From a virus: DNA of 20,419 nt. Each line of letters starts with the position of its first letter. The first letter of the stretch is position 1. The position numbers and the translations under genes are program-made. The stretch covers positions 1 through 20,419 of IMG/VR virus record IMGVR_UViG_3300022752_006029. One strand, written 5' to 3'. Below are positions 3,549 to 16,659 of the stretch, in pieces. Under the pieces are notes generated by a model. It did not search any database. It was given only the letters and a program-made list of their open reading frames with translations, and had not been told where the DNA came from.

Positions 3549-6529
3549 TGCCAGCAAAAAGCACATTTGGTTCAGCTTCAGTTATACCATATACAACCAG
3601 TAATCCTGTTTATGGTGTAAGCCGCTCTTTGCGGTTTAATTCGGCTGATTCGACTTATTTAAGCAGGACTCCGAGTAGTGCAGGAAATAGGAAGACTTGG
3701 ACTTGGAGTGGTTGGGTTAAGAGAACAAAAAACGATTCTGTTGGAAATTTATTTTCAAACTCAAACGGAGCATCAGGATTTTCTGCTATTCGGCTGGAAA
3801 CCGCAAATACTTTAGGAGTTTTTGATTGGACGGGATCAGCGATGGTTTGGTATTTAAACACAAATCAAGTGTTTAGAGATCCGTCAGCTTGGTATCATAT
3901 TGTTGTAGCTATTGACACAACACAGGCTACAGCATCAAACAGGGTGAAAATATATATCAATGGTTCAGAAGTAACATCATTCTCTACTGCAACCTACCCA
4001 ACTCAAAACCTAGATACATACACAAACTCAACTCAGCAAGCCGCGATAGGATCAACAAGAACAACAGGAAACTCTGAATTTTTTGACGGCTACCTAACCG
4101 AAATCAACTTCATCGACGGCCAAGCCTTGACGCCGGACAGCTTTGGCTATACAGATCCTAACACCGGGGTATGGCAACTCAAAAAATACACAGGCACATA
4201 TGGGACAAATGGATTTTATCTTCCTTTTACAAATCAAGGTAATACACAAAATTATTTTACGTATTCAGAGGATTTTTCAAACGTATTTTGGACAAAGTAT
4301 CAAAGCACATGCGTTACTAATGCAACCACTGCTCCAAATGGAACAAACACAGCAGATAAAATGGTTATTAATAACGGGCAGATTGGTGGTCAATTTTACA
4401 CGACAGGAGGAGGATTAGCAGACAATACAATACTTACATCCTCTGTTTATTTGAAAGCTTTGGATTTTACTACAGGATATCTTTATATACAAAAGAAAGA
4501 TGGTGGTTTTGCTTATATAGGTTTTGATTTAGCTACTGGAAATGTAACTGAAGGAATAAATGGAGCAATCGGCGGAACCATAACTTCAGTAGGGGATGGA
4601 TGGTATCGTGTCACATGTACTTCGAGTATTGGTACAGGAGCAGGCACAACAATCAATGTAAACTTTGCGTTTAATGGTACTGGAGACGGAGTAAAAGGAA
4701 GTTATATTTGGGGTGCACAACTTGAACAAGGATCATCAGCAGGACCTTACATGTACACCTTGGCATCAACACAAGCCCAGACTTTGGCACTAGGAGAAGA
4801 CAGATCATTACCAGCCGGAGGTTATAATAATTGGGCAGCTAGTGCTTTCTCTGTTACACCCGGATCAGGCAATGACAGCCTTTTGGATAGCCCAACAGAT
4901 TATGGAAATGATACAGGATTGGGCGGAGAAGTAGGGAGCAATTATGCAACTTTTAATTCAGTTGATCTTGGAGGATCTACATTAACAAATGGAAATTTGG
5001 ATATATCATCCGGAGCAAACCAATACAGATATTCAACAATGCCTGTACCCCAAACAGGAAAATGGTATTTTGAATTCACTGTAAATAGTCTAGGAGCATC
5101 AAATACAGGATTTTGGATTGTTTTACCGACTCTTGGTGGTGTTTTTGGGCTTCCTGCGAGTGGAGCATATAGAATATTAAAAGACGCAAGCGATATTAGT
5201 ATAACAGGTTCAGGAACTCCGGCAGCAGGTCATACAATGAAAGTTGCTTATGATGCTGATAATAAAAGAATATGGTTTGGAAGAGACACATTATGGTTTT
5301 CAAATGCAGGAAATACAACAAGCGATCCTAGTGCTGGAACAAATCCGTCATTTTCAAATCTTACATCTACAAATAATGATTCCATATATGTTAATCAAAC
5401 CGGAGGCGGAGCTGCCACTTGCACAGGTTCAATAAATTTTGGTCAACGACCATTCGCCTATGCCGCTCCCACAGGATTTAAAACACTTTGCACAGCCAAC
5501 ATGCCAACGCCAAAAATTAAAAAACCCAAATCTGCATTTGATGCCATTACATATAATGGAACAGGGACAACATTTGTTTCTCCCTCCGGATTGGCATTTG
5601 CTCCGGATTTGGTTTGGGTCAAAAGCAGATCACAGGACATAAGCCATGTATTGTCGGATACTGTAAGAGGAACGGGAGAAGTATTATGCTCAAATAACAC
5701 AAGAGCAGGTTCGCCCGATTCATTTTTGACTAATTTTAATCAAAATGGTTTTACCCTCAATACCAGTATAACGGGAAATAATAGCGGGAGTACATATGTT
5801 GCGTGGTGTTGGAAAGGAGGAGGACCATCTTCTACGAACACTGCTGGAAGTATAACTAGCCAAGTTAGCGTGGATCCCCAGACAGGATTTAGTATTGTGA
5901 GTTATACTGGAACTGGGGCAAATGGGTCAACCATTGGGCATGGGCTTGGGGTTGCGCCAAAGATGATTATTGCGAAAAGAAGGACTGGAACAGAGCACTG
6001 GTATGTTGGGCATTCTTCGATTGGGTGGTCAAATCAACTAATATTAAATTTAACGTTAGGGTCTGGGGGAAGCGGAATATGGTTCCTCACTCAGCCGACA
6101 AGTTCTGTCTTTTATGTTGGTGGCACAGGAAATTCAATTAACGAGTCTGGACAAACAGCTATTGCTTATTGCTTCTCTGAAATTGAGGGCTACTCCAAGT
6201 TCGGAAGCTACACAGGCAATGGGTTGGCAGACGGGCCGTTTGTGTGGTGCGGATTTAGACCAAAATTTCTGCTAATAAAAAATACCTCTGCGGTGTCTCA
6301 ATGGGAAATTATCGACTCAACAAGAGACACTTATAACCCAGCTGGTTTCGAGCTTTACCCAAACGCAACTACCGTAGAGGCAAACGCCGCAAGTTCTGGT
6401 GGTGACTTTGATTTTCTGTCCAGCGGTTTTAAGTCAAGACGTGCAACAACGGAATTAAATTCTTCTGGGGCAACGCACATTTTCGCCGCTTTTGCCGAAT
6501 CACCCTTCAAATACGCCCGGGCAAGATAA
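3548..6529 (+). CDS. Large multidomain tail fibre: LamG-like, carbohydrate-binding-like, SPRY-like and C-terminal phage repeats
   Basis: At 993 aa this is the largest protein here. Residues ~25-205 match the concanavalin/LamG_3 fold seen in marine phage fibres: RSLRFNSADSTYLSRTPSSA, WTWSGWVKR, WYHIVVAIDTTQ, VKIYINGSEV, DGYLTEINFIDGQAL. Residues ~235-405 resemble a phage carbohydrate-binding module (NYFTYSEDFSNVFWTK, DGWYRVTCTSS, YIWGAQLEQGSSAGPY). After the linker GEDRSLPAGGYNNW, residues ~480-650 look SPRY-like (GKWYFEFTV, MKVAYDADNKRIWFGRD). Residues ~665-993 resemble the DUF7483-type phage C-terminus, with three related units beginning TYNGTGTTF (668), SYTGTGANG (785) and SYTGNGLAD (887). 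The likely role is host glycan recognition at the tail tip. Its stop is directly against the stop of the opposing minus-strand gene. The domain names rest on remembered family patterns. Confidence 0.87.
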   Translation: MPAKSTFGSASVIPYTTSNPVYGVSRSLRFNSADSTYLSRTPSSAGNRKTWTWSGWVKRTKNDSVGNLFSNSNGASGFSAIRLETANTLGVFDWTGSAMVWYLNTNQVFRDPSAWYHIVVAIDTTQATASNRVKIYINGSEVTSFSTATYPTQNLDTYTNSTQQAAIGSTRTTGNSEFFDGYLTEINFIDGQALTPDSFGYTDPNTGVWQLKKYTGTYGTNGFYLPFTNQGNTQNYFTYSEDFSNVFWTKYQSTCVTNATTAPNGTNTADKMVINNGQIGGQFYTTGGGLADNTILTSSVYLKALDFTTGYLYIQKKDGGFAYIGFDLATGNVTEGINGAIGGTITSVGDGWYRVTCTSSIGTGAGTTINVNFAFNGTGDGVKGSYIWGAQLEQGSSAGPYMYTLASTQAQTLALGEDRSLPAGGYNNWAASAFSVTPGSGNDSLLDSPTDYGNDTGLGGEVGSNYATFNSVDLGGSTLTNGNLDISSGANQYRYSTMPVPQTGKWYFEFTVNSLGASNTGFWIVLPTLGGVFGLPASGAYRILKDASDISITGSGTPAAGHTMKVAYDADNKRIWFGRDTLWFSNAGNTTSDPSAGTNPSFSNLTSTNNDSIYVNQTGGGAATCTGSINFGQRPFAYAAPTGFKTLCTANMPTPKIKKPKSAFDAITYNGTGTTFVSPSGLAFAPDLVWVKSRSQDISHVLSDTVRGTGEVLCSNNTRAGSPDSFLTNFNQNGFTLNTSITGNNSGSTYVAWCWKGGGPSSTNTAGSITSQVSVDPQTGFSIVSYTGTGANGSTIGHGLGVAPKMIIAKRRTGTEHWYVGHSSIGWSNQLILNLTLGSGGSGIWFLTQPTSSVFYVGGTGNSINESGQTAIAYCFSEIEGYSKFGSYTGNGLADGPFVWCGFRPKFLLIKNTSAVSQWEIIDSTRDTYNPAGFELYPNATTVEANAASSGGDFDFLSSGFKSRRATTELNSSGATHIFAAFAESPFKYARAR

Positions 6530-7171
6530 TTAGATTCCGTAAGGTCGATTTACCAGATAACGAACACCCACTGCGCTTATCTTGGGTATGTGCGTCAAAC
6601 GAATTGTAAACTGACAAGTATTCCCCACATTTGCCACATCCTGATCCCGAATAAATGGCAAAGGAAACGCGCTGATAAGATCAAATCCGGATATTCCTGT
6701 TGGGAAATTGGGTGAACCACCCAAAGGAGCAGGTTGGGCACTTGTTGCCAAAGTCAAAACAAAATCATTTGCCTGTAGATTGAACGAAGTTGGCTTGGTG
6801 ATTGTGATGAGGCTGCTGGCAGTTGCTCCATAAGCTATAAAGATTGCACTGGTGGCATAGAAAACAGACGATACTGCATTTGAAACTGTTGCGGACAATG
6901 AATCTATCCGGGTGTTTAAGGCGGTAATTTGTTGGTTTGTGGTGGTGGAAAGATTGTTTATCAGTGTTGTGGTGCTGGAACTTAATGATACTGTTTGGGC
7001 AGAAAGATTTGTGATTTGTGTGTAAAATGAAACATTGTTGGGACCCACCACAAAGTTTGCAAAATCTAAGGTGTTGGTTCCTTGTTCATTTTCCACAATC
7101 AAAAGGTTGCCATTTATAATCTCTTCCACCCGAGGCAACGTCTTGATATTAACTACATTTGGATCAGCCAT
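6530..7171 (-). CDS. Putative virion structural / fibre-associated protein with coiled-coil centre
   Basis: This 213-aa protein is encoded opposite to both flanking genes. The N-terminus, GNLLIVENEQGTNTLDFANF (residues 21-40), recalls the attachment regions of phage fibres and is loosely similar in pattern to the N-terminus of the 518-aa fibre. Residues ~50-100 (LSAQTVSLSSSTTTLINNLS and following) form a Ser/Thr-rich heptad-like stretch probably making a trimeric coiled coil. The C-terminal ~100 residues are compact and beta-rich (FNLQANDFVLTLATSAQ, CQFTIRLTHIPKISAVGVRY), ending NRPYGI. It could be a short fibre, fibre tip, assembly chaperone or neck whisker; the sequence does not decide. AATAAATA lies six bases before its ATG. 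It converges on the LamG fibre with no bases between the stops and diverges from the first glycosyltransferase across 23 bases. Confidence 0.7.
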   Translation of the reverse strand: MADPNVVNIKTLPRVEEIINGNLLIVENEQGTNTLDFANFVVGPNNVSFYTQITNLSAQTVSLSSSTTTLINNLSTTTNQQITALNTRIDSLSATVSNAVSSVFYATSAIFIAYGATASSLITITKPTSFNLQANDFVLTLATSAQPAPLGGSPNFPTGISGFDLISAFPLPFIRDQDVANVGNTCQFTIRLTHIPKISAVGVRYLVNRPYGI

Positions 7172-7194: not shown

Positions 7195-8004
7195 ATGAAT
7201 ACAATGACAAAAGTAGGAATTGGTATTGTTACCTGCAATCGGCCGGATTTTTACAATAAATGCCGCCAAAACATACCCGAAGGGTATGATGTGGTAACAG
7301 TTAATGACGGCTCGAATTTTGAGCCTTTTCAAAGAAAAGGGGACATTTTTATACAAAATAAGGTAAATGTGGGGGTTGGTAAAAGTAAAAATATATTATT
7401 TCAGAAGCTTTTGGAAAAAGGAAAAGACCATATTTTTATCATTGAAGACGATATGCTCGTAAAAAATCCGGATGTTTTTAATGCATACATAAAGGCATCT
7501 GAAACAACAGGAATACAACATTTTATGTTTGCTTATCACGGCCCTGCCAATAAAAATGGCATTTCCGGAGGTCCGCCCTGCCCTCGTTTTATTGTTGAAT
7601 ATCCTGAAAATTTAAAAATAGCAATTGTTCAAGGTTGTGTGGGAAGTTTTTGTTACTATACCCGGAAAGTTCTTGAAGAAGTGGGATTGTTTGACGAACA
7701 ATTTTTGAATGCTTTTGAGCATGTTGAACACAGTTATCGCATATCCCTTGCAGGATATACCACTCCTTATTGGAACTGGCCGGATATTGCGAATAGCATG
7801 GATTATATTGATGAATTAATGTGCTCTGAACACAGCAGTGCCATTCGTCCCCGAAATGATTGGCGGGAAAACATAATAAAAGGATGTCAGTTGTTTTATA
7901 AAAAACATGGTTATAATCCAGCATGGCAAAATTGTGTACCAGATTCACCCAAACAAAAAGTATTGGAAACTCTTAAACAAATGAGGAAACAAACAAAAAA
8001 ATGA
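7195..8004 (+). CDS. GT-A family 2-like glycosyltransferase
   Basis: This 269-aa protein has features of GT2: a first strand VGIGIVTCNRPDFY (7-20), a nucleotide-binding VNDGS (36-40), NVGVGKSKN (58-66) and a DXD-type metal/nucleotide-sugar motif IIEDDM (82-87). FEHVEHSYRISLAGY (174-188) corresponds to the usual acceptor/catalytic-base region. The protein appears soluble, with no membrane segment, so it probably acts in the cytoplasm on a nucleotide sugar supplied by host or phage. A second in-frame ATG at 7204 is an alternative start. It opens the glycan block and overlaps the next glycosyltransferase by an ATGA. The sugar and acceptor are unknown. Confidence 0.85.
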   Translation: MNTMTKVGIGIVTCNRPDFYNKCRQNIPEGYDVVTVNDGSNFEPFQRKGDIFIQNKVNVGVGKSKNILFQKLLEKGKDHIFIIEDDMLVKNPDVFNAYIKASETTGIQHFMFAYHGPANKNGISGGPPCPRFIVEYPENLKIAIVQGCVGSFCYYTRKVLEEVGLFDEQFLNAFEHVEHSYRISLAGYTTPYWNWPDIANSMDYIDELMCSEHSSAIRPRNDWRENIIKGCQLFYKKHGYNPAWQNCVPDSPKQKVLETLKQMRKQTKK

Positions 8005-8738
8005 AAATTGCCCTTCTATTACCCACACGGGAGCGCATGAACAATAAAATCAGTTTCATGATGAGTGCTCTTGCCCGATGCAGCAATCCGGACAACTATA
8101 ATCTTTATATGGGTATTGATAAGGACGACCCCACATTGGAACGCTGTCAAAAAATGGCAAAAGTCATAAAAAATCTTAAAATCGTGGTCATTCCTCCGAA
8201 TCCGGAAGGTTTTAGATTGGGTTATTTTTGGAATGTTCTGGCCCAAAACAGCACAGAAGAAATCATCAGCATGGTTGGAGATGACATGGTTTTCAGCACA
8301 GATGGTTGGGATGAGAAGATTTTAGAAGAATTTTCAAAAGAAAAGTGTCCGGATAAGTTTAAATTGGTCTGCGGATTTGACGGACATCGTCAGGATCAGT
8401 TCGCCGCATGGCTTTTCATTCATCGATATTACATGGAAGTGACAGGATATTTCATGCGTCCAGAGTTTAGCCGGAACTGGATAGATCAATGGTTAGACAA
8501 CATGTATACAGCATTTGGACGCAAGGTGTATCGTTCCGATATTACCATAACACATAACCATTGGGTGTTTGGCACAAGCAAATATGACAAGGTGGCGGAA
8601 ATGTTACGCAAGCATGAAGGAGATAATAAGGAACATTCTGACCTTATTTGGCCAAAACTCAGGGATGAACGCATAAAAGAAGCCAAAAAATGGGAACAAG
8701 TCTTGGGTATCAAGGCAGATCTTGATAAGATTCAGTGA
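8001..8738 (+). CDS. GT-A type glycosyltransferase
   Basis: This 245-aa protein begins with a GT-A-like strand MKIALLLPTRER. It has GIDKDDPT (38-45), a donor-site helix region NPEGFRLGYFWN (67-78) and a DXD-type MVGDDMVFS (91-99) followed by GWDEKIL. The second half (FDGHRQDQFAAWLFIHRYY, ITHNHWVFGTSKYD) is His-rich and probably forms the acceptor site. The family pattern is that of small GT2-like enzymes of capsule clusters and phages. The start lies inside the upstream stop (AAAATGA), so translation is probably coupled, with no ribosome-binding site. The C-terminus is a charged helix. Confidence 0.78.
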   Translation: MKIALLLPTRERMNNKISFMMSALARCSNPDNYNLYMGIDKDDPTLERCQKMAKVIKNLKIVVIPPNPEGFRLGYFWNVLAQNSTEEIISMVGDDMVFSTDGWDEKILEEFSKEKCPDKFKLVCGFDGHRQDQFAAWLFIHRYYMEVTGYFMRPEFSRNWIDQWLDNMYTAFGRKVYRSDITITHNHWVFGTSKYDKVAEMLRKHEGDNKEHSDLIWPKLRDERIKEAKKWEQVLGIKADLDKIQ

Positions 8739-9478
8739 AAAAAACACTTTTTAGTTTTGGTAATTGGAGATATTATCCAACTTTGGATGCACTAAAACAA
8801 AGTGCGGAACAGAATGCTAATATTGATACCGTAGTTATTTTAAAAGAAAATGACATTGAAAGTGATTTTTACAAAAAGAATATACAACATTTCAATGATA
8901 AACGGGGATTTGGTTATTGGATATGGAAAAGTTATTTTATAAAAAAATTTTTAGACAAAGCAACAAAAGATGATGTTTTCATGTATGTGGATTCAGGGAA
9001 TGAAGTGGTGGGGGATCTTTTTCCTTTGTATAATTTGTGCCAAAAGGATGAAAAAGGCATAATTCTTTTTGAAAATACAGACGGAGAACCAAATGGAAAT
9101 GTTTGGAAAAACAATCTTTGGACCAAGTCAGATTGTTTTAACCTTATGAATCTTAAAACCGATGAATATTTGTATGGCAATCAGGTAAATGCGTCTTATA
9201 TAGTTTTTCGTAAAACCGATTTTAGTCAGAAGTTTTTCAACTGTTATCTGGATGTTTGCCAAAATTATAATATAATTTCAGATGCACCAAATGTAACAGA
9301 GGATTTCAACAAGGATTTTCGGGATCACCGACATGATCAATCCATTCTTTCTTTGCTTTCCATTCGTTACAAAATAACCATTCATCGAGATCCTTCCCAA
9401 TGGGGAAACCACAAAATCAAACAGGATTCCCCCTATAAACAATTGTTCTTTCATCACCGGAGGAAATACTATCTATGA
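8735..9478 (+). CDS. Putative glycosyltransferase of the polysaccharide-cluster GT-A type
   Basis: This 247-aa protein has the pattern RGFGYWIWKSYFIKKFLD (57-74), DDVFMYVDSGNEV (79-91) and DFRDHRHDQSILSLLS (194-209). Together these recall a group of bacterial and viral capsule-cluster glycosyltransferases in which GYGYWxWK, a D(A/S)G motif replacing the usual DXD, and HDQS are conserved. It is probably cytoplasmic. The start codon is GTG within GTGA, sharing the stop of the previous gene, so initiation is probably by re-initiation. A GGAGG in its last codons lies 11 bases before the next ATG. Donor and acceptor cannot be inferred. Confidence 0.72.
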   Translation: MKKTLFSFGNWRYYPTLDALKQSAEQNANIDTVVILKENDIESDFYKKNIQHFNDKRGFGYWIWKSYFIKKFLDKATKDDVFMYVDSGNEVVGDLFPLYNLCQKDEKGIILFENTDGEPNGNVWKNNLWTKSDCFNLMNLKTDEYLYGNQVNASYIVFRKTDFSQKFFNCYLDVCQNYNIISDAPNVTEDFNKDFRDHRHDQSILSLLSIRYKITIHRDPSQWGNHKIKQDSPYKQLFFHHRRKYYL

Positions 9479-10323
9479 AATTTCTTATCATTCAGGAAAA
9501 TGGTAGGCATATAGTTAGTCGTCATCTTCGGGAATGCCATAGCCTTTGCCGTGCACTTTGGTTTCATGGCGAGGAATGTGATGTGTGGGGATTGGGACAT
9601 GCCAATTTTGAAAAGATTCCAGATTACAATTCCTATGATGTGATAATCAATTTGGAAAATTATGATGTGGGATGGGTACCTGATCTTTCAAATTATAACA
9701 AACCCATCAAACTTCTTTGGGCCATCGACAGTCATTGTCAGGGAAAACAGTATTATTTGAATATTTTTCAAAAAGGAAAATACCGAAAAATACTGGAAGC
9801 CACCCGTTATTTTCTGGACGAAAACAGTGTTTGGTTCCCCAACTGTTATGATTCGGATTTCATTACTCCTTTGAAAGACGTTGAAAAAACAACGTTTTTG
9901 GGATTTTGTGGTAACTATTGTAACCGAAAACCACTTTTTGATGCGGTAAAAAATTATTTTCCTGAATTTAAATTGGATATTGATGTACGGGGAATACACA
10001 TGATTCGAGCCATAAACTCATATCAGGTTCTTTTCAACAAGAATATTTTTAATGACATCAATTATCGCAGTTTTGAAACAGCCGGTTGCGGAACATGTCT
10101 TCTCACAAGTTATGATGATCAGTACAATGAACTTGGGTTCAAGGAAGGCGAAACATTCTTTATGTATAAGTCAGTGGAGGAAGCAATTGAAAAGATAAAT
10201 TACTTGAAAGCCAATCCATCAGTTGCCAAGGATGTGGGTATAAAGGGAGAAGAATTTGTTCGGCAGAAACATACTTTCAAAAATAGGGCAAAAAGTCTGA
10301 TCAAATTTGTAAAAACTTTATGA
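9475..10323 (+). CDS. GT-B glycosyltransferase (CgeB / Glyco_trans_1_2-like)
   Basis: This 282-aa protein looks like a GT-B fold. The N-terminal half (MKFLIIQENGRHIVSRHLRE, WGLGHANFEK, YDVIINLENYDVGW) is the acceptor Rossmann-like domain. The C-terminal half carries NKNIFNDINYRSFETAGCGT near residues 188-207 followed by CLLTS, then the GETFFMYKSVEEAIEKINYL pattern of PF13524-type enzymes such as CgeB, in which the FE.AGCG...LL segment contacts the nucleotide sugar. The preceding gene ends in ATGA over this start. A GGAGG 11 bases upstream is one of the few Shine-Dalgarno-like sequences in the window, although its spacing is long. It probably acts in the cytoplasm, and its sugar is unknown. 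Confidence 0.82.
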   Translation: MKFLIIQENGRHIVSRHLRECHSLCRALWFHGEECDVWGLGHANFEKIPDYNSYDVIINLENYDVGWVPDLSNYNKPIKLLWAIDSHCQGKQYYLNIFQKGKYRKILEATRYFLDENSVWFPNCYDSDFITPLKDVEKTTFLGFCGNYCNRKPLFDAVKNYFPEFKLDIDVRGIHMIRAINSYQVLFNKNIFNDINYRSFETAGCGTCLLTSYDDQYNELGFKEGETFFMYKSVEEAIEKINYLKANPSVAKDVGIKGEEFVRQKHTFKNRAKSLIKFVKTL

Positions 10324-11012
10324 TTATAAAATCGGAAGAGGGACACGTTTTAACCCATCTGGGTTTGGGTGATCAAGTGACTTGTAACGGTCTTGTCCGG
10401 GAATTATACAAGCGTCATCCAAAGTTATATGTGTATAGCAAGTTGAAATATTATTATAATATCGAATTCATGTATCGGGATTTGCCCAATCTAAAAGTGT
10501 TTCCCATAGAAGAAAGCGGAGCGCAATATTTTGTTAATTTACACGGAATAAAAAATTTTTATAAATTAGGTATGGGAGGAGGCGATACCGTAGAGAAAAG
10601 TTTTTACGCCCAAGCAGGTGTGGATTTTAATAAAAAATGGGAAAGTTTCTACGTGCAGCGTGACCCTGAACGGGAACAAAAACTTTATTCCAGTTTTGGT
10701 TTTCAACCGGGTGAATACGCATTTATTCATGATGATATTGCAAGAAATCAGATTGTTGATACTAACAAGATACAAGATAAAAATTTAAAAATATTTCGGG
10801 TAAAACCAGAATATACAAACAACATATTTGATTATTGCAAAATAATTGAGAATGCAAAAGAAATTCATGTGATAGAATCTTGCGTCATGTTTATGGTGGA
10901 TTTGGTTTTTAAACAATTGGATAAACCTATGTACATGCATAGATATACAAAACCAATAGAACCATGGGAATATCCAACCAACCGATTAAATTGGCACATT
11001 TATGAGCGATAA
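10320..11012 (+). CDS. Possible GT9/GT-B-like glycosyltransferase
   Basis: This 230-aa protein begins with THLGLGDQVTCNGLVRELYK (12-31), reminiscent of the glycine-rich N-terminal loop of family 9 (heptosyltransferase-like) GT-B enzymes, where GLGD binds the acceptor or phosphate. After a central region it shows KNLKIFRVKPEYTNNIFDYC and a late ENAKEIHVIESCVMFMVDLV, comparable to the 'x.s..sv..h.A...gk' element of GT-B C-domains. It is shorter than usual GT9 proteins (~320-350 aa), so it could be a minimal or degenerate member or an auxiliary protein. It overlaps both neighbours by ATGA or 11 bases. The assignment leans on context and the N-terminal motif. Confidence 0.6.
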   Translation: MIIKSEEGHVLTHLGLGDQVTCNGLVRELYKRHPKLYVYSKLKYYYNIEFMYRDLPNLKVFPIEESGAQYFVNLHGIKNFYKLGMGGGDTVEKSFYAQAGVDFNKKWESFYVQRDPEREQKLYSSFGFQPGEYAFIHDDIARNQIVDTNKIQDKNLKIFRVKPEYTNNIFDYCKIIENAKEIHVIESCVMFMVDLVFKQLDKPMYMHRYTKPIEPWEYPTNRLNWHIYER

Positions 11013-11661
11013 AATCCCTTTAGTTTTCGATATTGGATATAATGTGGGTAATTTTACCCGATACATATTGGGAATTTATCCAAATGCTAAAATTATAGGA
11101 GTGGACGGTCATCCCACATATAAGGAAATGTTTGATCGAAATCCAATACCAAATGTTGAATATGTGCACGGGGTTGTTTCGGACGTTTGCAAACCGGATG
11201 TGTCTCTTTTCATATGTGATTGTAATCCCGGAATCAATTCAATAAATCCAGAATGGATTGAAAAAATACGGCATAGTCATTATTTCCAACAAACAAAGCG
11301 GGAAATAAAGGTAAGATCCACGACTTTGGATAAAATGATAAGCGTTTATGGGATTCCTGATATTATAAAATTGGATATTGAAGGTGCTGAGTCCATAGCA
11401 TTAAGCGGATTATCGCAAAAATGCGGTACGATTCTTTTGGAATGGTGTGAGGAATTTTTCGAAGATACATTAAAATGTGTTGAAATTCTAAGAAAACTTG
11501 GCTATAACATGTTTTCCAATGACAGCCATTGGGAAGGTACAAATGAAACCATACATGAATTCAACCCAAACTTGGAGTACAAAAGTTGGGACGAACTTGT
11601 AAAAGATGAGGACATTGATCCATCGCGTAAAATGCGTTGGGGAATGTTATATGCCAAATGA
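11002..11661 (+). CDS. FkbM-family SAM-dependent methyltransferase
   Basis: This 219-aa protein has the class I methyltransferase signature in the FkbM pattern: SAM-binding DIGYNVGNFT (10-19), acidic strand-2 end VDGHP (34-38), VRSTTLDKMI (104-113) and the diagnostic PDIIKLDIEGAE (119-130), followed by LLEWCEEFF. FkbM enzymes O-methylate sugars or polyketides and are common in O-antigen and capsule clusters. In this block it probably caps or decorates a sugar hydroxyl. The start lies within the end of the preceding gene (11-base overlap) and the stop overlaps the next ATG (ATGA). It may take SAM from the host. The target is unknown. Confidence 0.87.
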   Translation: MSDKIPLVFDIGYNVGNFTRYILGIYPNAKIIGVDGHPTYKEMFDRNPIPNVEYVHGVVSDVCKPDVSLFICDCNPGINSINPEWIEKIRHSHYFQQTKREIKVRSTTLDKMISVYGIPDIIKLDIEGAESIALSGLSQKCGTILLEWCEEFFEDTLKCVEILRKLGYNMFSNDSHWEGTNETIHEFNPNLEYKSWDELVKDEDIDPSRKMRWGMLYAK

Positions 11662-12347
11662 ACATAACTGAACGATACAAAGAAATTCCGAAAGAAGCTT
11701 GGGCGCAGGAATCCCAGCAAATGGAATTGAAATTATGGGAAGCCAATAATATTGGGGATGATTGGAATATGTGGTGGAAAATAAAATTTGATCATTATAT
11801 TTCAATTGCAAACGAAAAAGTTGATTCCATAGCAGAAGTCGGGTGTGGTCCTATAGCCAAAAACATACAATACGTGGTTCAAGCACTCCAAAATAAACCC
11901 ACAAAGTACTTTCTTAATGATCCTCTTCTAAAGGAATATGTGAACATGAACAGACCCGTGGCTGGTTTTGCAATGGAAGTTCAGGCAAAACTCAGTGCAA
12001 AACCTCTAGAGGAATGGACTCTGAAGGAACCGGTGGATATGATAGTTTGCATTAATGTTTTGGATCATGTCTATAGCATGCCCAAATGCATGCAATCCAT
12101 ATATAACAACCTAAAGAAAGGCGGAATTCTTATTTTGGGAAATGATTTGACCAATCAGGAAGATTTTCTTAAAACGCCGAAAGATGATCCCCATGGAATG
12201 ATGCACCCGATTCGTTTTGATCAGGATGATGCCAAACCTTTCTTAAAGGATTACGAACCCATAAATGAAAAGATTCTTTCCCGTCAAGATGGCCGTGCTC
12301 CGGACAGCCATTATGCAACTCTTCTGTATATAGGCAGAAAAAAATGA
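11658..12347 (+). CDS. Class I SAM-dependent methyltransferase
   Basis: The start at 11658 was chosen because its ATG overlaps the upstream stop (ATGA), like most genes here. A TTG seven codons earlier is possible but less likely. The 229-aa product has motif I IAEVGCGPIAKNIQ (58-71), a motif II-like YFLNDPLLKEY (84-94), then VDMIVCINVLDHVYSMPKC (126-144) and LKKGGILILGNDL (152-164), the standard Methyltransf_11/25 order. The N-terminal 45 residues (AWAQESQQMELKLWEANN) form an accessory helical segment as in several sugar or small-molecule methyltransferases. It is the second methyltransferase in tandem with the FkbM enzyme, pointing to a doubly methylated or differently methylated glycan. 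Its start is inside the preceding stop codon. Confidence 0.82.
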   Translation: MNITERYKEIPKEAWAQESQQMELKLWEANNIGDDWNMWWKIKFDHYISIANEKVDSIAEVGCGPIAKNIQYVVQALQNKPTKYFLNDPLLKEYVNMNRPVAGFAMEVQAKLSAKPLEEWTLKEPVDMIVCINVLDHVYSMPKCMQSIYNNLKKGGILILGNDLTNQEDFLKTPKDDPHGMMHPIRFDQDDAKPFLKDYEPINEKILSRQDGRAPDSHYATLLYIGRKK

Positions 12348-13345
12348 AAGCGGCTGTATTGGAAAAAATTGACCACCCGCTTGTAGTGGCTGATGTTGCC
12401 CTGACTGAAATCAAATTTGGTCAGGTAGCTGTAAAAATAAATGTTAGTGGGGTTTGTGGTGCCCAGCTTCAGGAAATTGCCGGACAAAAAGGAAATGCCA
12501 AATTCGTTCCCCATCTTTTGGGACATGAAGGTTGCGGAATTGTGGAATGCGTTGGAGAAGGGGTTACAAGGGTAAAGGTGGGAGACAAGGTCATTCTTCA
12601 TTGGAAAAAAGGAGAAGGTATTGAATCACCTTTTCCTGAATACATTTATGACGGAAGAAAGATCAGCAGCGGAAAAATAACTACTCTTAGTGAAAAAAGT
12701 ATCGTTTCAGAAAACCGACTTACACCAGTTCCTCAAAATGTTCCGGATGAATTTTGTGCACTGTTAGGTTGTGGACTCAGCACTGCACTTGGAATTGTAA
12801 ATTATGATGCCAACGTAAAGTTTGGAGAAACTGTTCTTGTAATTGGTTGTGGAGGAGTGGGTCTTAATATAATCTTGGCATCAAACTTGGCCGGATCCGG
12901 CAACATTTATGGTGTTGATATTTCAAACGAAAAGCAAAGCATGGTGGAGGAACTGGGAGCCCGATTTGTTGGAGGATCAAACCAAATTCATGAAAAAATA
13001 GACTGTATTGTTGACACAACAGGAAACATGCATGTTGTTTCCCACTATTTGCCTTTACTTTCAAACAGGGGAAGATGCATAATTGTGAGCCAACCTCATA
13101 ACAATAAAACCTTAGAAATAAAAAACCCAGCCAACTTTTTTGCAGGAAATGGCCAGATCATCCGTTCTACACAGGGCGGGAATGTGAATCCAAGTGAAGA
13201 TTTTCCTAGATATGTTAATTTATATAATAAAAGAAAGATTGATTTTGAAAAAATGATAACGCATCGTTTTAGTCTGGACGATGTTAATAAAGCCATAGAT
13301 TTAGTAAAAAATGGTAAAGCCGGTAGAATTATGATTCGTCCCTGA
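12344..13345 (+). CDS. Zinc-type medium-chain dehydrogenase (MDR/ADH family)
   Basis: This 333-aa protein has the medium-chain dehydrogenase layout. It has catalytic zinc ligand candidates C38 (VSGVCGA), H61-E62 (LLGHEGCG) and C143 (LLGCGLSTALG), and a nucleotide-binding domain VLVIGCGGVGLNII (164-177) with an acidic residue in GVDIS (190-194) that favours NAD over NADP. The four-Cys structural-zinc loop is absent; the region 86-110 has no Cys. The usual (S/T)48-H51 proton relay, CxSDxxH-like, reads CGAQLQE, with Ala and Gln at those positions. This suggests an altered catalytic mechanism or substrate. It presumably oxidises or reduces a sugar, polyol or ketose in the precursor cassette. It shares its ATGA with the methyltransferase upstream and is followed by the thiamine-diphosphate enzyme. 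Confidence 0.85.
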   Translation: MKAAVLEKIDHPLVVADVALTEIKFGQVAVKINVSGVCGAQLQEIAGQKGNAKFVPHLLGHEGCGIVECVGEGVTRVKVGDKVILHWKKGEGIESPFPEYIYDGRKISSGKITTLSEKSIVSENRLTPVPQNVPDEFCALLGCGLSTALGIVNYDANVKFGETVLVIGCGGVGLNIILASNLAGSGNIYGVDISNEKQSMVEELGARFVGGSNQIHEKIDCIVDTTGNMHVVSHYLPLLSNRGRCIIVSQPHNNKTLEIKNPANFFAGNGQIIRSTQGGNVNPSEDFPRYVNLYNKRKIDFEKMITHRFSLDDVNKAIDLVKNGKAGRIMIRP

Positions 13346-13358
13346 TAAAATAGATTTT

Positions 13359-14543
13359 ATGTTAACCAAAAACGATCTTTTAAATTTTGAAAACCACATC
13401 GCAGACCTTTACAGGGACTGTCAACTTCCTTTTCTGTTCCATCTTTCAGGTGGAAATGAGGATCAGCTTATAGAAATTTTTAAAGAAATTAAAGAAGGTG
13501 ATTATGTTTTGGCAACACACCGGAATCATTATCATGCCCTATTGCACGGAATTCCTGCTGATGTTTTGTCTGACAGAATCAAGAATGGTAGAAGCATGTT
13601 TGTATATGACCGAAAGAGAAACTTTTTCACATCGGCAATTATAGGAGGTACTGCCGCAATTGCAGCCGGTATTGCTCTTGCATTAAAACGTAAAGGATCC
13701 GACAAAAAGGTTTGGTGTTTTGTGGGAGATGGAACAGAAGATTCTGGTCATCTTTTTGAAGCGGCCCGATATGTGCACGGCTTTGATTTACCCTGCACTT
13801 TTGTAATTGAGGATAACAACCGTTCAGTTTGCACCAATAAAACAGAAAGATGGGGCAAGGCATTGGATCCCACGTTCTTTCCTTGTGTAAGAAAATATTA
13901 CTATGATATTACATGGCCGCATGCCCGGACTGAAGACATGATCAATCTTGGCAAAACCAAAGTAAAAACTCATGATGATTATTTTCCCCCTCTTCCGAAA
14001 GAAGAACTTCCGGTAGTTGAAGCCCCGGATGATATCAAATTCAAGGATGCGATTAACCAAATGATGACGGAAATAGGAAAAATGAATTCCGTGTTTATTG
14101 GTTATAATGTAACAAATGGAGATGCCATGGGGACCTTAAAGGGCGTTGATAAATCCCAAAAGATTGAGACTCCGGTGGCGGAAAACCTGATGACAGGATT
14201 GGGAATAGGTATGTCATTTGAAGGATTTAAACCTGTTGTTTATTACGAGCGACATGATTTTATGCTTGTAGCTGCAGACGCAATCATCAACCACGTGAAC
14301 CATATTGAAAGAATTTCTCATGGGGAATACAAGGCTCCGGTAATTCTTCGTACAGTTGTGGCCGATTCCGGACCATTTTATTCCGGCCCTACACATTCAC
14401 AAGACTTCACTGAAGGATTCCGGCATATGGTTGATTTTCCGATCTATGTTCCGACTACGGGGAAAGAAGCGGTGATTGCATACAGAAACGCAATGAATTC
14501 CAGCCGTCCCTGTATGACTGTGGAGAAGAAAAGCTGTTTCTAA
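13359..14543 (+). CDS. Compact thiamine-diphosphate enzyme: fused E1-alpha-like and E1-beta/transketolase pyrimidine domains
   Basis: In one 394-aa chain, residues ~25-200 form the PP (diphosphate) domain with THRNHYHALLHG (53-64) and the ThDP/Mg motif GDG(123-125)...EDNN(151-154), the GDG-X(~27)-NN signature. Residues ~225-394 resemble the pyrimidine domain, with the conserved Glu candidate in IETPVAENLMTGLGIGMSF (269-287) followed by PVILRTVVADSGPFYSGPTH (327-346), similar to E1-beta/transketolase segments. The C-terminal transketolase domain is missing and no E2 or E3 partner is nearby. This makes a lipoyl-linked dehydrogenase unlikely and favours a carboligase, transketolase-like or decarboxylase role in making an unusual sugar precursor. 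It stands 13 bases after the dehydrogenase and 5 before the kinase. Confidence 0.85.
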   Translation: MLTKNDLLNFENHIADLYRDCQLPFLFHLSGGNEDQLIEIFKEIKEGDYVLATHRNHYHALLHGIPADVLSDRIKNGRSMFVYDRKRNFFTSAIIGGTAAIAAGIALALKRKGSDKKVWCFVGDGTEDSGHLFEAARYVHGFDLPCTFVIEDNNRSVCTNKTERWGKALDPTFFPCVRKYYYDITWPHARTEDMINLGKTKVKTHDDYFPPLPKEELPVVEAPDDIKFKDAINQMMTEIGKMNSVFIGYNVTNGDAMGTLKGVDKSQKIETPVAENLMTGLGIGMSFEGFKPVVYYERHDFMLVAADAIINHVNHIERISHGEYKAPVILRTVVADSGPFYSGPTHSQDFTEGFRHMVDFPIYVPTTGKEAVIAYRNAMNSSRPCMTVEKKSCF

Positions 14544-14548
14544 AATGA

Positions 14549-15286
14549 ATGAACAACAATATTCTCATAATTGGTGAAAGTTGTCGCGACATTTTTGTTT
14601 ATTGTGATTGTACTCGTCTGTGTCCTGATATTCCCGTTCCAGCGCTAAAAGTAATCCGTCAGACAGAAAACGAAGGAATGGCCAAAAACGTTCAAAGGAA
14701 CGTTTTGGCTTTGGGTGCTGAATGTAATATCACCACCAATTCAAACTGGACAAATATAACAAAAACTCGGTATGTGCATGATCAGACCAATCATATGTTT
14801 ATTCGGGTCGATACAGATCATCAAATTGATCCATTAGACATGAATTTGTTGAATTTAAATTATGGATTGGTGGTGATATCCGATTATAACAAGGGATTTT
14901 TGTCAGAATCAGTTATAGAAAAAATATGTTCAAGTCATTCAAATGTGTTTTTGGATACCAAAAAGAAACTGGGATCTTGGGCAAAGAACGCAAAAATTAT
15001 AAAAATAAACAATTTTGAATATGAAAGAAGCAGGGAAAATCTTACCCCAGAACTTAAAAACAAGATTATTTGCACAAAAGGAGGAGATGGTTGCGCATAT
15101 CAGGGTAAAATATATCCGACAAAAAGAATAGAAGTAAAAGACACTTCAGGTTGTGGAGATACATTTTTGGCCGGACTTGTTGTAAAATATTCGGAAACAA
15201 ACGATATAATAGAATCCATAGCTTTTGCCAACATTTGTGCATCAGAAGTTGCCCAGCATAAGGGTGTAACTGTTCCCAAGCTATGA
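14549..15286 (+). CDS. PfkB-family sugar kinase, HldE/RfaE kinase-domain-like
   Basis: This 245-aa protein is shorter than most ribokinase-fold kinases (~300 aa). The N-terminal part, ILIIGESCRDIFVYCDCTRL followed by CPDIPVPALKV, aligns by eye with the HldE kinase domain (VLVVGDVMLDRY...PEAPVPVVKV). VVISDYNKG (108-116) matches LSDYGKG, and DTSGCGDTFLAGL (198-210) is the second PfkB signature with catalytic Asp204. The first signature, GGAANVARN in HldE, reads EGMAKNVQRN, so the Gly pair is altered, possibly changing sugar specificity. The expected reaction is ATP-dependent phosphorylation of a sugar phosphate at the anomeric carbon. It overlaps the HAD-nucleotidyltransferase gene by ATGA, coupling kinase, phosphatase and nucleotidyltransferase steps. 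Confidence 0.83.
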   Translation: MNNNILIIGESCRDIFVYCDCTRLCPDIPVPALKVIRQTENEGMAKNVQRNVLALGAECNITTNSNWTNITKTRYVHDQTNHMFIRVDTDHQIDPLDMNLLNLNYGLVVISDYNKGFLSESVIEKICSSHSNVFLDTKKKLGSWAKNAKIIKINNFEYERSRENLTPELKNKIICTKGGDGCAYQGKIYPTKRIEVKDTSGCGDTFLAGLVVKYSETNDIIESIAFANICASEVAQHKGVTVPKL

Positions 15287-16659
15287 GTGACATCAAGCTG
15301 GTTATATTTGATCTGGATGGTGTTTTGGTGGATTCCCGGGAATTGCATTATGTTTCATTGAATCGTGCCTTGGAAGATGTGGATAAAAAATATATAATAA
15401 CAAAAGAAGAACATCTTTCCACATTTGATGGACTTAGCACGACGAAAAAGTTAAAGATTCTTTCTGAAAAGAAAGGTTTACCAGAAGAATATCATAAAAA
15501 GATATGGGAATTAAAACAAAAATATACAACAGAAATTATTGATAATTTTCAGGAAGATCAAAGAATAAAGGAAATTCTTAAAAAAATAAAACAAGATGGC
15601 AAAAAGATTTGTTGTTGCACAAATTCTATAAGAGAAACTTCAAAAATACAATTGCTAAGAAAAGGATTTTTTGAATATATAGATTATTTGTTTTCAAATG
15701 AAGACGTCACACACCCAAAACCAAGTGCAGAAATGTATTTGCGGGCGATGTTGGTTTGCCATGTAAATCCGGATGAAACTGTTATTGTAGAGGATTCACA
15801 TATTGGAAGAAAAGCAGCACAAAGATCCGGGGCACATCTTTTTGCTGTAAAAAATAGCAATGATTTGAACTATGAAAAACTAAAAGCTTTTATAGATAAG
15901 AAAGAGACACATATGATTAAACCAAAATGGCAGGGCAGAGGAGATGTTCGGGTTCTTATTCCTATGGCAGGAGCAGGTTCCCGTTTTGAAAAAGCAGGGT
16001 ATACATTCCCTAAACCTCTTATTGAAGTGCGAGGAAAGCCCATGATTCAGGTTGTTATAGAGAATCTTAATATTGATGCAGAACATGTTTTTATAGTGCA
16101 AAAAGAACATTATGAAAAATATAATTTAAAAAATCTTTTAAATATTATTTCTCCCAATTGCAAAATTGTTCAAACACAGGGAATAACTGAAGGAGCGGCC
16201 TGCACAACTCTTTTGGCGAAAGAATATTTTAATGATGATAAAGCTCTTATTATTGCCAATTCAGACCAATTTATTGAATGGGATAGCAACGAGTTCATGT
16301 ATTCCATGATTGCAGATAATATTGATGCGGGAATACTGACTTTTAATTCGACCCACCCCAAATGGAGTTATGCAAAGGTTAATGATGACGGGTTTGTTTG
16401 TGAGGTTGCAGAAAAGAATCCCATCAGCAACATAGCCACTGTGGGTGTTTATTATTGGAAACGGGGATCGGACTATGTCAAATATGCCGAGCAAATGATA
16501 AACAAAAATATCCGGGTTAATAATGAATTTTATGTTTGCCCTGTGTTCAATGAAGCCATACAAGACGGAAAGAAAATAAAAGTATTCAATATTGAAAAGA
16601 TGTGGGGGCTGGGCACGCCGGAAGATTTGGATTATTATCTTAAAAACCGACCAGAATGA
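15283..16659 (+). CDS. HAD phosphatase fused to sugar-1-phosphate nucleotidyltransferase
   Basis: This 458-aa protein has two enzymes in one chain. Residues 1-~205 are a beta-phosphoglucomutase/phosphatase-type HAD: motif I DLDGVLVDS (D10, D12), motif II CCTNS (S115 region), motif III HPKPSAEMY (K146), motif IV VEDSHIG (E170-D171). Residues ~218-458 are a GT-A nucleotidyltransferase: LIPMAGAGSRFEKAGYTFPK (225-244, NTP-binding loop with Lys244), GKPMIQ, ANSDQF with Asp328 (325-330) and IEKMWGLGTPEDL near the end, as in GlmU/RmlA-like proteins. It probably removes one phosphate from a bisphosphate made by the preceding kinase and then forms the NDP-sugar. The nucleotide used is not evident. It is translationally coupled by ATGA at both ends. 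Confidence 0.9.
   Translation: MSDIKLVIFDLDGVLVDSRELHYVSLNRALEDVDKKYIITKEEHLSTFDGLSTTKKLKILSEKKGLPEEYHKKIWELKQKYTTEIIDNFQEDQRIKEILKKIKQDGKKICCCTNSIRETSKIQLLRKGFFEYIDYLFSNEDVTHPKPSAEMYLRAMLVCHVNPDETVIVEDSHIGRKAAQRSGAHLFAVKNSNDLNYEKLKAFIDKKETHMIKPKWQGRGDVRVLIPMAGAGSRFEKAGYTFPKPLIEVRGKPMIQVVIENLNIDAEHVFIVQKEHYEKYNLKNLLNIISPNCKIVQTQGITEGAACTTLLAKEYFNDDKALIIANSDQFIEWDSNEFMYSMIADNIDAGILTFNSTHPKWSYAKVNDDGFVCEVAEKNPISNIATVGVYYWKRGSDYVKYAEQMINKNIRVNNEFYVCPVFNEAIQDGKKIKVFNIEKMWGLGTPEDLDYYLKNRPE

Follow-up and report, generated by a model that had tools for sequence, protein, structure and literature searches.

A short ThDP gene of mostly aquatic phages is accompanied by one or the other of two unrelated oxidoreductases, a Zn-dependent alcohol dehydrogenase (Zn-ADH) or a radical-SAM protein, and this is what is new here. 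We analysed a stretch of 20,419 nucleotides (the window), a virus record of IMG/VR which also carries PhoH, tail-fibre-type and glycosyltransferase genes and is a phage fragment; the ThDP gene lies at 13359-14543 on the plus strand. By the predicted genes around it, the pairing is near-constant and mutually exclusive, and the oxidoreductase partner is more informative on the chemistry than the missing E2 subunit. The product is best explained, from its sequence features, as a functional ThDP enzyme of E1/transketolase descent that consists of only the two cofactor-binding domains. A preliminary description of this DNA had read it as a minimal, E2-free enzyme of a glycan cluster, which holds, while the phage origin, the split-gene family and the oxidoreductase partner had escaped it.

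A two-domain ThDP protein

The gene is an open frame of 394 codons from ATG to stop, and the reverse strand is full of stops. Two Pfam matches exceed the curated cut-offs: residues 9-161 match E1_dh (E 9.9e-17) and residues 227-391 Transket_pyr (E 1.3e-10). There is no Pfam match to Transketolase_C (PF02780) in the 394-aa protein. Residues 3-393 align with positions 7-404 of the 405 in the PHROG_34187 profile (function unknown; E 5e-191), so the minimal chain of fused PP and PYR domains proposed earlier is borne out by frame, domains and full-length family match. The PP (diphosphate-binding) domain, residues 1-205 (13359..13973, +), is closest to E1-alpha and forms a separate gene of about 205 aa in split relatives, while the PYR (pyrimidine-binding) domain, residues 226-394 (14034..14540, +), is closest to E1-beta. 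Alignment of fused and split relatives places the fusion point in a short, variable linker at about residues 206-225 (13974..14033, +). The chain ends with the PYR domain, at the point where Transketolase_C would start. Truncation or frameshift is ruled out by the complete viral homologues, which are all similar in length, and because the missing third domain recurs across more than 150 loci, it is a family trait.

The third domain and an E2 partner are missing beyond the window as well. A search of 12 virus records, comprising that of the window, the complete genomes of the cyanophages P-TIM68 and S-SM2 and 9 other large ones, gave neither E2 (PF00198) nor Transketolase_C; the control profiles for this search matched in 10 of 14 and 14 of 14 genomes. 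The idea that either is encoded elsewhere in the genome was rejected for these two complete and ten partial records. The earlier statements that both are missing are therefore upheld, and an E2 gene just outside the window, which would have spoken against the earlier reading, has no counterpart in the two complete relatives. Two marks of an E1 component, Transketolase_C on the beta part and a cognate lipoyl E2 encoded alongside, are both lacking. In the literature searched, ThDP enzymes of the transketolase/E1 lineage are described with three domains (PP, PYR and Transketolase_C), the role of the last being obscure. A large natural family free of it, both fused and split, offers a direct test of this role, and also a way to study how E1 chemistry is uncoupled from E2.

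The defining features of ThDP enzymes (PMC2831816) are a PP-domain motif, GD-X25-30-N, and a catalytic Glu on the PYR side; the sequence has the motif and a candidate for the Glu. The Mg/ThDP motif is GD-X28-N, from D124 to N153 (13728..13817, +), within GDG...EDNN at residues 123-125 and 151-154; G123, D124 and N153 are at least 97% conserved in 155 PP-domain proteins. In alignment to 1ik6, the candidate catalytic Glu275 (14181..14183, +) falls on the Glu of the E1-beta 'DTP..E' motif and His346 (14394-14396, +) on the histidine of the E1-beta 'HS', and both are at least 97% conserved in 154 PYR-domain proteins. The preliminary description had picked out the same motif and a Glu candidate. 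His28, Arg55, His57, His59, His188, Arg298 and Asp300 reach the same level (at least 97% of 154-155 proteins), and the catalytic residues are kept across more than 150 sequences at identities down to about 40-50%.

The AlphaFold monomer is confident (pLDDT 89.6, pTM 0.92). In the PDB, Foldseek matched it best to transketolases, with TMq up to 0.67, and to DXS, at about 0.36; a structural viral library gave no close match over the full length. The ThDP site lies between two chains in transketolase and inside one chain in DXS (PMC7661550), so the better overlay of the model on transketolase hints at an inter-chain site in the phage enzyme. The active form would presumably be a dimer when fused, or an alpha2beta2 tetramer when split, with ThDP at the PP/PYR interface.

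In sequence comparison, both domain profiles score E1 alpha/beta highest, DXS second and transketolase third, with full-sequence E values against E1 alpha/beta down to 1.8e-32 and 1.9e-25. The top profile and PDB matches are E1 alpha/beta, although these matches are far under the NCBIfam equivalog cut-offs. In a concatenated tree the family forms a single clade with support of 100/99, which joins E1 (92/89) through a long branch, and DXS and transketolase fall outside this grouping. The phylogeny suggested earlier as a check thus groups the protein with other glycan-cluster homologues in one clade next to E1. E1 alpha and beta (pyruvate/branched-chain type, TEED superfamily K2) are closest on both domains, share the PP and PYR motifs and form the sister clade, but the phage enzyme lacks Transketolase_C and E2, has a shortened PP part, is often one chain and stands in a glycan-cluster context. 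Similarity to transketolase and DXS is weak, and the third domain that would make the protein a member of either is missing.

Other reduced or divided ThDP enzymes are known. The sulfopyruvate and phosphonopyruvate decarboxylases ComDE and RhiEF consist of PYR and PP only, on two genes (PMC12141560), but they belong to the decarboxylase lineage, whereas the phage family is E1/transketolase-like and has the fused order PP-PYR; sulfopyruvate decarboxylase beta was matched at E 0.008 only, with E1/transketolase types best. The split-gene transketolase of Carboxydothermus and archaea has PP and PYR on separate chains and is active as alpha2beta2 (PMC7661550), but, in contrast to the phage family, its PYR chain still bears the C-terminal domain. 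In a search that covered mostly literature outside subscription, we found no description of an E1-lineage architecture without Transketolase_C or of the partner swap.

Fused and split genes and their carriers

A first scan of IMG/VR gave 64 loci, and with three further scans the set grew to 155 different PP-domain proteins and 154 PYR-domain proteins, fused proteins being counted in both. More than 150 distinct loci, mostly from aquatic phages, carry the short protein or the split pair. Complete fused copies have 394-443 aa (mostly 394-407), and the split form makes up slightly less than half of the enlarged set. The usual split order in viruses is PYR (about 172-176 aa), radical SAM, PP (about 205 aa), and an uncultured phage of 735 kb also has the halves as separate genes. 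With well over a hundred mostly aquatic virus contigs, the gene family may define an unrecognised phage route to altered host or virion glycans.

Among deposited phages, full-length homologues occur only in the isolates S-SM2 and P-TIM68 (60-63% identity), where they are annotated as "transketolase central region-containing protein". These members of PHROG_34187 are direct homologues with the same ADH-ThDP-kinase neighbours, and in the literature searched we found generic annotation and no study of the protein. Sullivan et al. (2010) noted LPS clusters in S-SM2 and did not discuss the ThDP protein (PMC3037559). A DNA-level search gave no near sequenced phage, and a plasmid search at E 1e-20 found nothing.

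In cells the family is rare and sporadic; the matches listed include Patescibacteria, Nanoarchaeota, Desulfobacterota/Myxococcota and Omnitrophota MAGs and one Prochlorococcus assembly. These contigs may in part be of viral origin or wrongly binned, and there may be cellular carriers beyond those listed. Genome scans of three phyla at E 1e-25 matched 4 of 297, 1 of 287 and 6 of 279 genomes, the seed genome included each time, and 3 of the 4 matches in the 297-genome set resemble ordinary E1-alpha. A wide bacterial distribution was rejected on these counts.

Zn-ADH or radical SAM as partner

In the window the partner is a Zn-ADH of the MDR type (333 aa; 12344..13345, +), recognised by profile matches and neighbourhood, with conserved Zn ligand candidates C38, H61, E62 and C143. 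The first locus set has a Zn-ADH beside or near the ThDP gene in 64 loci, directly upstream in 57 and two genes upstream in the other 7. First-set loci without ADH, unless cut short, mostly have a radical-SAM protein instead. This partner keeps the CX3CX2C motif and C-terminal cysteines; those tested carry a SPASM domain, and the 364-aa version in a siphophage-like group (L172) matched Radical_SAM only.

In the enlarged set, flanking sequence is present for 126 loci: a Zn-ADH alone stands in 64 of them, radical SAM alone in 55 and neither in 7, and no locus combines the two (Fisher p 2e-28). Among 28 representatives at 75% identity the corresponding counts are 13, 12, 3 and 0 (p 1.5e-5); both p-values leave shared ancestry in. 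Most split loci of the enlarged set are new, and the radical-SAM profile was built from the loci in which the pairing pattern first appeared. The tree requires at least three partner changes, in both directions: L129 and L161, within the fused ADH clade, carry radical SAM, and L238 and L246, within the split radical-SAM clade, carry ADH. One candidate double-partner locus, L070, was rejected; its radical-SAM match has 55 bits, versus 461-505 for the main partners, and lies 1.8 kb away. The either-or pairing is a clean clue to the sugar reaction.

In neomycin producers, the oxidation step of BtrN is performed by a Zn-ADH (NeoA). BtrN, a radical-SAM enzyme with a twitch domain, oxidises an alcohol of a sugar-like cyclitol to the ketone (PMC9012708). 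No statement of the equivalence of NeoA and BtrN was found in the literature searched.

Several loci differ from the common arrangements. A third, divergent split group (L165-L169, L250, L252; also L075) showed neither partner with the profiles applied here. DegT-aminotransferase-like and RfbC-like genes stand nearby in L250 and L252, and L252 also has, by eye, a separate E1alpha/E1beta-like pair at 5215-6932. In L185 (5145-7268) the radical-SAM partner has 707 aa versus about 360, and the extra sequence, which by eye looks intein-like ('FFCLVAGTRVV...GDRVF'), starts at the CX3CX2C motif.

Glycan cassettes and the possible reaction

Downstream of the ThDP gene, a condensed HldE-N-like PfkB sugar kinase (245 aa; 14549..15286, +; rfaE_dom_I E 4.5e-29) is present in dozens of phages; it is short against the 315-position profile but keeps the GCGD motif. 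Its stop codon is overlapped by a 458-aa fusion of HAD phosphatase and NTP_transferase (nucleotidylyltransferase; 15283..16659, +), the probable nucleotide-sugar activation step. Upstream, profile matches mark glycan genes with glycosyltransferase-type ORFs (7195..12347, +), among them an FkbM methyltransferase (11002-11661, +) and a second methyltransferase (11637-12347, +). The HldE-like kinase is added in most fused phage loci, and in 69 distinct loci kinase and ADH both lie close to the fused gene. An HldD-like epimerase (E 5e-50) and an RfaE-domain-II-like nucleotidyltransferase (E 1e-32) are often found in fused phage loci, and cupin and HAD genes are also frequent there.

Glycosyltransferases adjoin both arrangements. 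Another phage group has a small cassette of GT2-type glycosyltransferase (45 loci), a conserved 254-aa protein (48 loci), PYR, radical SAM and PP, located in the virion module between the P22-type coat gene and the tail genes (L171, L179, L194, L204 and about 40 more), where it may glycosylate virions. The kinase had no match in these P22-coat-linked cassettes, so that kinase and nucleotide activation are optional, and the core looks like ThDP enzyme, oxidoreductase and glycosyltransferases. The cassette product is probably an unusual sugar for surface glycans.

The earlier suggestion of a carboligase or decarboxylase for sugar synthesis is plausible. We give about an even chance to a phage carboligase that places a two-carbon unit onto a carbonyl provided by the paired dehydrogenase, for glycan synthesis. 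The partner, Zn-ADH or radical SAM, would oxidise a sugar or sugar-phosphate hydroxyl, leaving a carbonyl. A donor, either pyruvate or a ketose phosphate, would be cleaved by the ThDP enzyme to give a C2-carbanion/enamine, and the same enzyme would ligate the two-carbon unit to the new carbonyl. As the product would leave the enzyme without lipoyl transfer, E2 would be unnecessary. Kinase and nucleotidylyltransferase, where present, would phosphorylate and activate the product, and neighbouring glycosyltransferases would consume the activated sugar. By analogy, the best reading is an attachment of two carbons to a ketosugar like that of AviB1/AviB2. The E1-like AviB1/AviB2 and Pau11/Pau12 of avilamycin and paulomycin are proposed to attach two pyruvate carbons to a ketosugar (PMC4425429, PMC4753412), an E2-free two-carbon-branch role proposed from genetics (PMC4425429). 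The likeness to AviB is drawn from its published description, and Pau11/Pau12 are separate subunits of 325 and 345 aa, of which the beta member has room for a third domain. Somewhat more tentatively, the cassette may represent an undescribed C-C bond-forming phage module, in which a two-domain carboligase and an interchangeable alcohol oxidiser would make new branched or chain-extended surface sugars and the third domain would be dispensable.

Several points count against the carboligase. The radical-SAM protein might run other radical chemistry, Zn-ADH can act as a reductase downstream of the ThDP step, a small clade (L165-L169, L250, L252) has neither partner, and the HldE/HldD-like genes equally fit heptulose-phosphate synthesis of the transketolase type. 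The last alternative, the main rival and less probable than the carboligase, would take a ketol unit off a ketose phosphate or hydroxypyruvate and pass it to an aldose phosphate, giving a heptulose or other ketose phosphate for an NDP-heptose-like route through HldE-like kinase, RfaE-II-like nucleotidyltransferase and HldD-like epimerase, with the dehydrogenase acting on another atom of the sugar. It draws on the kinase in most fused loci, the HldD-like and RfaE-II-like genes in many, the HddA-like and HddC-like genes that immediately precede the split pair in Omnitrophota L075, the failure of any GmhA family to match, and the monomer model, which overlays transketolase better than DXS. However, the sequence is nearest to E1 instead of transketolase, and searches around the pair found neither a kinase nor an RfaE-II-like gene in most radical-SAM-type loci.

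A non-oxidative decarboxylase that turns a 2-oxoacid into an aldehyde, which Zn-ADH would reduce or the partner consume as in phosphonate pathways, seems improbable: ADH adjoins the gene and the third-domain-free ComDE and RhiEF are decarboxylases (PMC12141560), but the alternation with radical SAM fits aldehyde reduction poorly, the sequence is E1-like and not ComDE/RhiEF-like, and no PEP mutase or phosphonate genes were seen. The E1-like sequence of both domains would also suit a phage E1 mimic plugging into a host 2-oxoacid dehydrogenase complex and feeding host E2. In solved E1-E2 complexes, the E2-binding surface is borne by the E1-beta C-terminal domain, and just this domain is missing here. 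Given also the shortened PP part, the glycan-synthesis context and phages without E2 (12 records), such a mimic is very improbable. The lack of a domain present in E1 might instead mark a degenerate, catalytically dead relic, but we give this hardly any weight, with catalytic residues at least 97% conserved across that range of divergence and partner genes constant.

Two further observations concern neighbouring genes. The protein of 230 aa at 10320-11012 has no Pfam, NCBIfam or PHROG match, and its BLAST cluster lies upstream of the ThDP gene in 9 loci. Genes annotated as "phosphoheptose isomerase" occur in P-TIM68 and S-SM2 (L002:17474-17812; L003:21980-22291 and 23621-23950). The label is probably wrong, for their apparent cluster member L037:4691-5023 matches no isomerase family but the EcbF-BcbF HAD capsule phosphatase (E 1e-5).
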